Shown piece by piece: positions 40,170 to 42,420 of a DNA stretch of 64,000 nt (positions are counted from its first letter, which is position 1; each line of letters opens with the position of its first letter). Source of the DNA: Photobacterium sp. Ph5 (GTDB taxonomy: Bacteria > Pseudomonadota > Gammaproteobacteria > Enterobacterales > Vibrionaceae). The stretch lies in assembly GCF_022129445.1 (NCBI RefSeq), contig NZ_JADQAQ010000007.1, forward strand, positions 1 through 64,000, given 5' to 3'. The notes beneath the pieces were generated by a model. It was not told the origin of the DNA, made no database searches, and was given only the letters and a program-made list of their open reading frames with translations. The position numbers and the translations under genes were made by a program.

Positions 40170-40303
40170 CAATTTTTTCATATTTGAAATCTTTCTTCTT
40201 TTTTTTAAATAGCACAGTATTAAAATAAAAGAGTATATTAATACTATCAACGAAGTAGATATTTTTATCTCTTATCGTTTGCCATAAATAATAGATTTAT
40301 GGC

Positions 40304-40358
40304 GGGAGATGATGTTCCTCCTTTAACCGCCTTTCAATAAAGGATAATGACGTCTAAC
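40304..40358 (+). ncRNA. Fluoride riboswitch (crcB motif) aptamer
   Basis: The RNA folds as the known fluoride aptamer. Stem 1 is GGAG (40305-40308) with CTCC (40318-40321). The pseudoknot-type stem GATGT (40311-40315) pairs with ACGTC (40350-40354). Stem 3 is CCTTT/AAAGG (40330-40334 and 40339-40343), with the conserved joining bases AACCGCC before it, ATAATG after it and TAAC at the end. Position for position this matches the Thermotoga petrophila aptamer, with compensatory changes in the stems. The expression platform is unclear. It precedes a NifU-like gene, with no crcB or eriC nearby. Confidence 0.85.
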
Positions 40359-40517
40359 AACATTCGGCTTTAAATCGTCGAGGACCGTGTATTTGTTTAA
40401 ATGGATATTAATAATTTTAATTAATTATATTAATTTTTGCATTCGTCGCGTTGTTATTTCATTTTTGTCCTCTTCTGTTTTCTGATCGATAAAGAATTAT
40501 CAATTCAACACGGCTGA

Positions 40518-40562: not shown

Positions 40563-40584
40563 CGGTGTCTAGTGAGGCAGAGCA

Positions 40585-41277
40585 ATGCAATACTCAACTG
40601 AAGTACAAAATATGTGTCCTATCTCTCGTGGTCCACATCACGAGTCTGCACCCATTCCTGTTGAAGGTCGTTGGGTACAACCTAAAGATGTTATTGCAAT
40701 TTCTGGTGTTAGCCACGGTTGCGGTACTTGTGCTCCACAGCAAGGTGCTGCGAAACTTACATTAAACGTGAAAAATGGCATCATCGAAGAAGCATTAATC
40801 GAAACTATCGGTTGTTCAGGTATGACGCACTCTGCAGCAATGGCTTCAGAAATCATTACTGGTAAAACTATCCTTGAAGCACTTAACACTGACCTAGTGT
40901 GTGATGCTATCAACGTTGCAATGCGTGAAATCTTCCTTCAATACGTTTACGGTCGTACACAAACAGCTTTTTCTTTAGATGGTCTACCAATTGGTGCTGG
41001 TCTTGAAGATCTTGGTAAAGGCTTACGTAGCCAAGTAGGTACGCATTACGGTACTCGTGAAAAAGGTCCTCGTTACATGGAGATGGCTGAAGGTTACGTT
41101 ACTAAAATTGCACTTGATGACAACGATGAAATCATCGGCTACCGTTTCGTTAACATCGGTAAGATGATGGAATCTATCGGTAAAGGTGTTCCTGCAGATC
41201 AAGCAATGGAACAAGCAACAGGTCAATATGGTCGTTTTGACGAAGCGGTTCGCACTATCGATCCTCGTCACGAATAA
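40585..41277 (+). CDS. NifU-like iron-sulfur cluster assembly scaffold protein
   Basis: 230 residues, soluble. Three regions carry the cysteines expected of an IscU/NifU N-terminal scaffold: SHGCGTCAPQ (about 43-52), IGCSGMTHSAA (about 77-87) and DLVCDAIN (about 105-112). The C-terminal third (EMAEGYVTKIALDDNDEIIG and GRFDEAVRTIDPR) is specific to the GGGtGRT-associated version. It is not the housekeeping IscU. It is followed 65 bp later by a GGGtGRT-family gene and preceded by a fluoride riboswitch and a Fur-like box. The role is unknown. Confidence 0.8.
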   Translation: MQYSTEVQNMCPISRGPHHESAPIPVEGRWVQPKDVIAISGVSHGCGTCAPQQGAAKLTLNVKNGIIEEALIETIGCSGMTHSAAMASEIITGKTILEALNTDLVCDAINVAMREIFLQYVYGRTQTAFSLDGLPIGAGLEDLGKGLRSQVGTHYGTREKGPRYMEMAEGYVTKIALDDNDEIIGYRFVNIGKMMESIGKGVPADQAMEQATGQYGRFDEAVRTIDPRHE

Positions 41278-41342: not shown

Positions 41343-42347
41343 ATGGCTGCATTATTTGAAAGCTTTGATCGTCGTATCAACCAAATCACACCTGTTCTAG
41401 AACAATACGGTTTTGCTTCACTTGAAGAAGCGCGTCAATACATCGAAGACAAAGGTGTTAACGCTTACGATATCGTAAAAGAAACTCAACCTATCGCATT
41501 TGAAAACGCATCATGGGCATACGTTTTAGGTGCTGCAATCGCGCTAAAAGAAGGTGCTAAAACAGCAGCTGAAGCGGCTGAATTTTTGGGTCAAGGCCTA
41601 CAAGCATTCTGTATCCCTGGCTCTGTTGCTGACCAACGTAAAGTAGGTTTAGGTCATGGTCGTCTAGGTGCGCGTCTACTAAGCAATGAGACTCAATGTT
41701 TTGCATTCCTTGCAGGTCATGAATCATACGCTGCTGCTGAAGGTGCAATCAAAATCGCACTGAATGCAAACAAAGTTCGTACTAACCCACTACGCGTTAT
41801 TCTTAACGGTTTGGGTAAAGATGCGGCTTACCTTATTGCACGTATTAACGGCTTTAACTATGTACAAACTCAGTTCAACTACACTACCGGTGAACTAGAA
41901 ATTGTTAATGAGCGTCGTTTCTCTCAAACACAACGTGGCGAAATTAACTGTTACGGTGCTGATGATGTACGTGAAGGTGTAGCGATTATGCACCGCGAGA
42001 ATGTTGATATCTCTATTACAGGTAACTCAACTAACCCTACTCGCTTCCAACACCCAGTTGCTGGCACATACAAAAAAGAGCGTCTAGAAGCTGGTCAAGA
42101 TTACTTCTCAGTTGCGTCAGGTGGTGGTACTGGTCGTACTCTACACCCTGATAACGTAGCTGCAGGTCCTGCATCTTACGGTCTTACTGATACTATGGGT
42201 CGTATGCACTCTGACGCTCAGTTTGCTGGTTCTTCATCTGTACCTGCTCACGTAGAAATGATGGGCTTAATCGGTATGGGTAACAATCCAATGGTTGGTG
42301 CAACAGTTGCTGTTGCAGTAGCAATTGAGCAAGCGCAAAACGCGTAA
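41343..42347 (+). CDS. GGGtGRT-family protein
   Basis: 334 residues, soluble. It belongs to the family named after the motif seen here as SGGGTGRTLHPDNVAAGPAS (about residues 261-280). Other striking features are GHGRLGARLLSNETQCFAFL (about 103-122) and EGAIKIALNAN. No biochemical function is known to me. It always seems to travel with the NifU-like gene and is probably co-transcribed with it here. AAATTTATTGAGGATTTT before the ATG contains a good Shine-Dalgarno (GAGG). Confidence 0.82.
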   Translation: MAALFESFDRRINQITPVLEQYGFASLEEARQYIEDKGVNAYDIVKETQPIAFENASWAYVLGAAIALKEGAKTAAEAAEFLGQGLQAFCIPGSVADQRKVGLGHGRLGARLLSNETQCFAFLAGHESYAAAEGAIKIALNANKVRTNPLRVILNGLGKDAAYLIARINGFNYVQTQFNYTTGELEIVNERRFSQTQRGEINCYGADDVREGVAIMHRENVDISITGNSTNPTRFQHPVAGTYKKERLEAGQDYFSVASGGGTGRTLHPDNVAAGPASYGLTDTMGRMHSDAQFAGSSSVPAHVEMMGLIGMGNNPMVGATVAVAVAIEQAQNA

Positions 42348-42385
42348 GTAGCAATTTAAAAGCTTTATCTTCAAATAACGATAAA

Positions 42386-42420
42386 AGGCGTGGTTTTTAT
42401 TAACCATGCCTTTATTTTTA
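42386..42420 (+). terminator. Intrinsic terminator after the GGGtGRT gene
   Basis: AAAGGCGTGGTT..AACCATGCCTTT hairpin followed by ATTTTTATCT. Confidence 0.75.

Follow-up and report, generated by a model that had tools for sequence, protein, structure and literature searches.

A fluoride riboswitch aptamer ahead of a NifU-like/GGGtGRT gene pair in Photobacterium and other Vibrionaceae

Three described systems provide the closest comparisons for the locus considered here: (i) the IscU/NifU Fe-S scaffold proteins (PF01592), in which the cluster site is formed by three cysteines and an aspartate, (ii) the GGGtGRT family (PF14057), a strongly conserved and widespread protein family of uncharacterised function, and (iii) the fluoride riboswitch class (crcB motif, RF01734). 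The targets named for fluoride riboswitches in the available parts of two papers are exporters, Na+/H+ antiporters, enolase, pyrophosphatase, mutS, and formate hydrogen lyase (PMC11139923, PMC2864571). Iron-dependent expression has been reported for relatives of the pair. According to the portions at hand of two studies, the NifU-like/GGGtGRT pair of Bacteroides thetaiotaomicron is down 11-12.8-fold under iron depletion (PMC10434189), and a GGGtGRT protein spot of Clostridium pasteurianum changes with iron by 7.1- and 2.2-fold, being apparently higher with iron (PMC5395762).

We analyzed a stretch of 64,000 nt from Photobacterium sp. Ph5, hereafter the window, where a first-pass annotation had placed a fluoride aptamer at positions 40304-40358. 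The covariance search of the whole window (cmscan) bears this out, the proposed interval falling inside an RF01734 match at positions 40296-40363 of the plus strand (47.6 bits against a curated cut-off of 34, E 4.4e-10). The alignment spans positions 1-64 of the 64-position model, complete at both ends, and is the sole match in the window above any Rfam gathering score; a second copy was not found in the 4.46-Mb genome, for which 150 of 428 first-look candidates were scored. The aptamer stem P1 (40305-40321; GGAG 40305-40308 with CTCC 40318-40321) is paired in 100% of cells in an alignment of 29 Photobacterium-type leaders, with one compensatory change. The pairing GATGT/ACGTC, which had been singled out in the first pass as kept by different bases (GAGGC/GCCUC) in Thermotoga, is the pseudoknot between the P1 loop and the 3' strand (40311-40354; GATGT 40311-40315 with ACGTC 40350-40354). 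It is paired in 97.2% of cells in the same 29 leaders, and 28 Vibrio-type leaders have the compensated form GGGGT/ACTCC in 100% of cells. Stem P3 (40329-40344; GCCT 40329-40332 with AGGA 40341-40344) is taken from the cmscan alignment, and its outermost pair is non-standard. Judging by the covariance model and by conservation, the leader almost certainly contains a fluoride aptamer. The window aptamer is an ordinary member of the known riboswitch class, sharing with it the stems, the joining bases, the pseudoknot, and the above-cut-off score, but it differs in the genes under its control, which encode a NifU-like and a GGGtGRT protein.

The leader between the aptamer and the start codon is long, 221 nt in the window. 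The likely ribosome-binding site, GAGG at positions 40574-40577, was read from the sequence and ends 7 nt before the ATG at position 40585. The NifU-like gene (40585-41277, 230 aa) and the GGGtGRT gene (41343-42347, 334 aa) follow on the plus strand, as the first-pass annotation had stated. The NifU-like protein matches NifU_N (PF01592) over residues 56-102 only, with 25.3 bits against a cut-off of 22, and has IscU/NifU matches in PDB; the GGGtGRT protein matches PF14057 over its full length with 639 bits against a cut-off of 27. The suggestion that the pair stands in place of crcB requires qualification: the genome has a crcB gene on another contig (G000:C113), and the genome search, with 150 of 428 first-look candidates scored, found no aptamer at that gene.

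The first reading had also taken a Mn-dependent pyrophosphatase for the third gene of the operon, within a fluoride module built on Fe-S chemistry and pyrophosphate removal. This pyrophosphatase (NF003877, 398 bits) is encoded on the same strand 254 nt downstream of the GGGtGRT gene, and pyrophosphatase is among the known fluoride-riboswitch genes, as given in the available part of a published account (PMC11139923). Nevertheless, a pyrophosphatase gene follows the pair in only 24 of the 84 aptamer loci of Vibrionaceae and is, therefore, not part of the conserved unit, whereas the NifU-like gene lies between the aptamer and the GGGtGRT gene in all 84. In addition, the gap after GGGtGRT contains a terminator-like hairpin with a T-run (42384-42413, plus strand; a 12-pair stem with 5 G-C pairs, z -4.94). 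The three-gene module is thus very improbable, and the pyrophosphatase probably lies outside the two-gene unit.

To compare the occurrence of the aptamer and of the pair, the same 197 Vibrionaceae genomes were searched for both, and the coordinates were then crossed. The aptamer counts are lower bounds, because the many-genome searches used stricter filters and scored a limited number of first-look candidates per genome, 25 in this family search. An aptamer match was observed in 115 of the 197 genomes (above the cut-off in 110), and a GGGtGRT match in 85. Conservation of the leader in relatives, which the first pass had proposed as a check, is nearly complete: 84 of the 85 GGGtGRT genes have a same-strand fluoride aptamer 812-1026 nt upstream. 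The exception is genome G011, where the pair lacks an aptamer and no weak match was found even at E up to 10. Among 130 aptamer matches listed, 122 are above the cut-off and 8 are below, 3 of the latter falling inside a pyrophosphatase coding sequence. As judged from Pfam runs on one representative of each type of gene behind an aptamer, the 122 comprise 84 aptamers before the pair, 36 before a CLC-family gene, and one each before crcB and a gene of the Na/H exchanger family. Thus, the NifU-like/GGGtGRT pair is the commonest fluoride riboswitch target found in Vibrionaceae. Since the family GGGtGRT proteins form one clade in the midpoint-rooted tree (100/100), with G011 inside it, the aptamer was probably gained once in Vibrionaceae and then lost in G011. 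The leader of the G011 pair (L059) is AT-rich.

Among the 84 genomes with both the aptamer and the pair, a crcB match is present in 71 and an aptamer-controlled CLC gene in 12, both in none, and neither in one (G104). The two appear to be mutually exclusive in the family as well, as a crcB match was found in 0 of the 36 genomes with an aptamer-controlled CLC gene. The latter gene (L233-L270) sits just upstream of a conserved gene cluster, which we take to resemble thiC with other thiamin synthesis genes.

Outside Vibrionaceae, the pair is common and the aptamer is rare. In a draw of 299 Pseudomonadota genomes, GGGtGRT was above the cut-off in 7, of which 6 belong to Vibrionaceae. A pattern scan of GTDB genomes gave at least 585 relatives of the GGGtGRT protein, and the best 80 were retained. 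Among these best 80, the NifU-like gene was found in 79 loci and lies directly upstream of GGGtGRT in 78. More than 1300 nt of sequence upstream of GGGtGRT was available in 71 of the 80 loci; the aptamer was found at the one Vibrionaceae locus and at none of the 79 others. One further aptamer search was given 50 of the 79 outside loci, of which 49 were searched with up to 84 first-look candidates per genome.

An aptamer at the pair was found, however, in a set of anaerobe genomes. This set comprises 80 of 99 genomes positive for GGGtGRT (the others had a partial gene, in 10 cases, or a gene close to the start of a contig, in 9), and up to 56 first-look candidates per genome were scored. An above-cut-off aptamer is present anywhere in the genome in 14 of the 80 and directly upstream of the pair in one, G883, a genome of the Clostridia, to which Clostridium neonatale belongs. 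Within 3 kb of the pair, 0.04 aptamers were expected in this set and one was seen. The order of elements in this locus is the aptamer (38.5 bits), which overlaps a terminator-like hairpin (z -6.7), the NifU-like gene, GGGtGRT, a crcB fragment, a second aptamer just under the cut-off (33.2 bits), and two genes with MutS domain V (MutS_V). The NifU-like copy has 21.2 bits with PF01592, below the cut-off of 22. The available part of Weinberg et al. 2010 (PMC2864571) names mutS as a known target of the class. Other loci bring the pair together with fluoride genes in the absence of an aptamer at the pair. Genome G764 has crcB, a 121-aa gene, the NifU-like gene, and GGGtGRT in this order, all on the same strand; among the 79 loci, crcB adjoins the pair in L084 and L146, and enolase is located within 3 kb of it in L070 (on the opposite strand), L084, and L133. 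The 79 loci thus have 5 crcB or enolase neighbours, in 4 loci, where a rough calculation made post hoc would predict approximately 0.14. Because the G883 locus and these neighbours exceed expectation, a real tie of the pair to fluoride is likely, although most genomes with the pair show none. The first-pass view that the riboswitch gives two uncharacterised genes a testable context is upheld by conservation across the family and reinforced by the Clostridia locus.

The two proteins differ in how closely they follow their families. The GGGtGRT protein of the window, besides its full-length match, is 71-89% identical to 54 other aligned sequences from several phyla (55 of the 73 available proteins, which are the window protein and 72 others); these identities are biased to close relatives, because the sequences were drawn from the best 80 of at least 585. 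By sequence, no solved relative of it was found, and the fold search gave no clear match. Its genes are preceded by a fluoride aptamer in Vibrionaceae and in a single genome of the Clostridia, and elsewhere they mostly occur without it. The NifU-like protein shares with the IscU/NifU scaffolds the NifU_N match, a predicted IscU-like fold (Foldseek best match IscU, E 8.6e-4, with a model of pLDDT 79), and one aligned cysteine, C77. It differs from them in its length of 230 aa with a C-terminal extension and in the cluster site, where Q53 and A55 replace the first cysteine and the aspartate; the position of the third IscU cysteine lies outside the aligned stretch. It has, instead, its own invariant cysteines C49, C77, and C106, present in 51 of 51 aligned sequences (51 of the 73 available proteins, again the window and 72 others). 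The Fe-S chemistry attributed to the pair in the first pass is only partly substantiated: the NifU-like protein retains a single aligned IscU-type cysteine besides the invariant cysteines of its own, and expression of relatives is reported to depend on iron.

Comparison of the leaders pointed to mutually exclusive helices in the Vibrio-type, for which 28 of 53 distinct leaders were aligned; the Photobacterium-type alignment includes all 29. In Vibrio-type leaders, (i) a distal helix joins the aptamer 3' strand to a later segment (CCTACAGAAAA/TTTTCTGTAGG), (ii) the ribosome site is covered by a stem with a segment B (TGTTTTCC/GGAAAACA), and (iii) a segment A, just 3' of the aptamer, alternatively pairs with B. 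The bound state, composed of P1, the pseudoknot, and A:B, is paired in 97.7% of 571 cells versus 47-58% in slid controls, and has 18 two-sided changes versus 5.3 in shuffles; the A:B helix is itself paired in 98.2% of cells and was recovered unprompted by RNAalifold. The unbound state is paired in 83.8% of 532 cells versus 40-55% in slid controls (98.2% for the ribosome-site stem and 73.4% for the distal helix), and in two of five measures it is no better than shuffles (two-sided-change pairs, 76 of 500; further pair types, 352 of 500).

In the Photobacterium-type leaders, the unbound state is paired in 84.3% of 554 cells versus 28-51% in slid and 82.7% in shuffled controls. Folding of the window leader predicts two fluoride-free helices that would unmake the aptamer (40341-40471, plus strand): AGGATAA 40341-40347 with TTGTCCT 40465-40471, and AACAAC 40356-40361 with GTTGTT 40450-40455, kept in 70.1% and 99.3% of cells, respectively, in the 29 leaders. 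The predicted docked structure of the window also retains both, and thus they may not be specific to the fluoride-free state. A predicted local hairpin, TTCGGC/GTCGAG (40363-40382, plus strand), overlaps segment A and is paired in 91.5% of cells, with two-sided changes in 3 of 6 pairs. The predicted fluoride-bound helix A:B (40380-40472, plus strand; GAGGAC 40380-40385 with GTCCTC 40467-40472) was drawn from the folding of other leaders and from the Vibrio-type counterpart; divergent Photobacterium-type members carry other sequences in its place, and the only Photobacterium-type count for A:B is unusable, because the aligner shifts this helix in some rows.

When the aptamer was forced to form in 84 leaders, the ribosome site became more open by over 0.1 in 26 and less open in 2, versus 48 and 44 of 672 shuffled leaders, respectively. 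The duplexes of the 84 leaders were matched by at most 2 of 200 shuffles in 25 (3' strand), 38 (A:B), and 18 (ribosome site) leaders. Of 8 leaders with printed structures, 2 form A:B in the docked state alone, 3 form it in both states, and 3 lack it in both. In the window leader, the ribosome site does not open on docking (0.29 to 0.25 in constrained folding), none of the three duplexes beats shuffles (119, 133, and 111 of 200 were as good, with the B segment outside the searched stretch), and A:B is absent from the predicted structures, the docked one included. The compared structures speak for a translational ON switch, with the clearest case in the Vibrio-type. Because the folding tests of the window leader are negative, support for the mechanism comes from the family and passes to the window by kinship; we still consider it likely, from the compared leaders, that translation would be turned on by fluoride, at a confidence lowered because no folding test supports the window's own leader. 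In the proposed mechanism, without fluoride the aptamer 3' strand would pair with the distal segment, segment A would be held in its local hairpin, and segment B would cover the ribosome-binding site. Binding of fluoride and Mg would dock the pseudoknot so that the distal helix could not form; the A:B helix would then form and allow the NifU-like and GGGtGRT proteins to be translated.

A transcriptional switch, with the aptamer controlling an intrinsic terminator within the leader of approximately 220 nt rather than the ribosome site, would be in line with the Clostridia leader, which is of the terminator type, with the lack of folding support for the ribosome-site model in the window's own leader, and with the terminators that overlap the motif in many cases, as reported in the available part of Weinberg et al. 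2010 (PMC2864571). But the terminator scan lists no hairpin with a T-run between positions 40364 and 40584 of the plus strand, and Vibrio-type leaders retain the stem over the ribosome site at the frequency given above; for the window, this switch seems quite improbable.

The best explanation of the locus is probably that of a fluoride-induced two-gene unit acting as an accessory fluoride-tolerance module. That the pair itself contributes to fluoride tolerance appears fairly likely, and our best guess is an iron-linked role in this tolerance. The GGGtGRT protein, which is strongly conserved, would act as an enzyme whose iron or Fe-S centre is supplied or held by its NifU-like partner. The pair would then let some (mainly fermentative) metabolic step continue when enolase or similar enzymes are blocked by fluoride, the exporter being encoded elsewhere in the genome. 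The simplest fit would be an enzyme that depends on iron and has a dedicated carrier for the iron or cluster, and we give an iron-dependent enzyme an even chance. The pair may instead be a general housekeeping module linked to iron or anaerobiosis, its fluoride control in Vibrionaceae being a lineage-specific addition with no role in tolerance. The wide occurrence of the pair in anaerobes, mostly without an aptamer, its iron-dependent expression in the two anaerobes mentioned above (the available parts of PMC10434189 and PMC5395762), and the single GGGtGRT clade of Vibrionaceae are all compatible with such a module; we nevertheless regard it as unlikely, given the aptamer at the pair in the Clostridia genome, the crcB or enolase neighbours in other phyla, and the fact that 84 of 85 family genomes with GGGtGRT have kept the aptamer. 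Compared with the accessory tolerance module, a more far-reaching version is tentative and somewhat doubtful: the pair would represent ancient, transferable, export-independent fluoride-tolerance enzymes of fermenting bacteria, whose unusual iron or Fe-S centre bypasses or protects a fluoride-blocked step, and which acquired the riboswitch at least twice, in a translational form in Vibrionaceae and a transcriptional form in Clostridia.

A literature search found no publication joining a fluoride riboswitch to NifU, although the association may be among the genes listed by Baker et al. 2012. The word "fluoride" is absent from the available parts of the GGGtGRT papers examined, including PMC10434189 and PMC5395762, and the association was not found in those of the Vibrio fluoride-riboswitch literature (PMC9495176, PMC11477304, PMC7266159). 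As far as these searches show, the near-complete tie of the riboswitch class to the pair in Vibrionaceae is new, and so are its reappearance in one genome of the Clostridia and the translational-switch model derived from comparing leaders. The riboswitch names the stress and thus gives a direct handle on when the cell calls for the NifU-like and GGGtGRT genes. Should fluoride tolerance rely on the pair, the bacterial fluoride response would extend beyond export. This would be useful for work on organofluorine degradation, in which fluoride toxicity is a major obstacle, as stated in the available part of PMC11139923.

Two minor features of the GGGtGRT loci were also observed. A small cysteine-rich protein recurs beside the pair; its cluster covers 3 of the 79 loci, L090 among those noted, and a copy in L293 is similar by eye. 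We presume that this neighbour (L090, L293) is of the C_GCAxxG_C_C type. Fragments corresponding to the last 30 GGGtGRT residues are located some kilobases from the gene in G969, G859, G858, G955, G057, L094, and L129, and other loci have ORFs near GGGtGRT that resemble tyrosine recombinases by eye; integrating elements may use the 3' end of the GGGtGRT gene as their attachment site.
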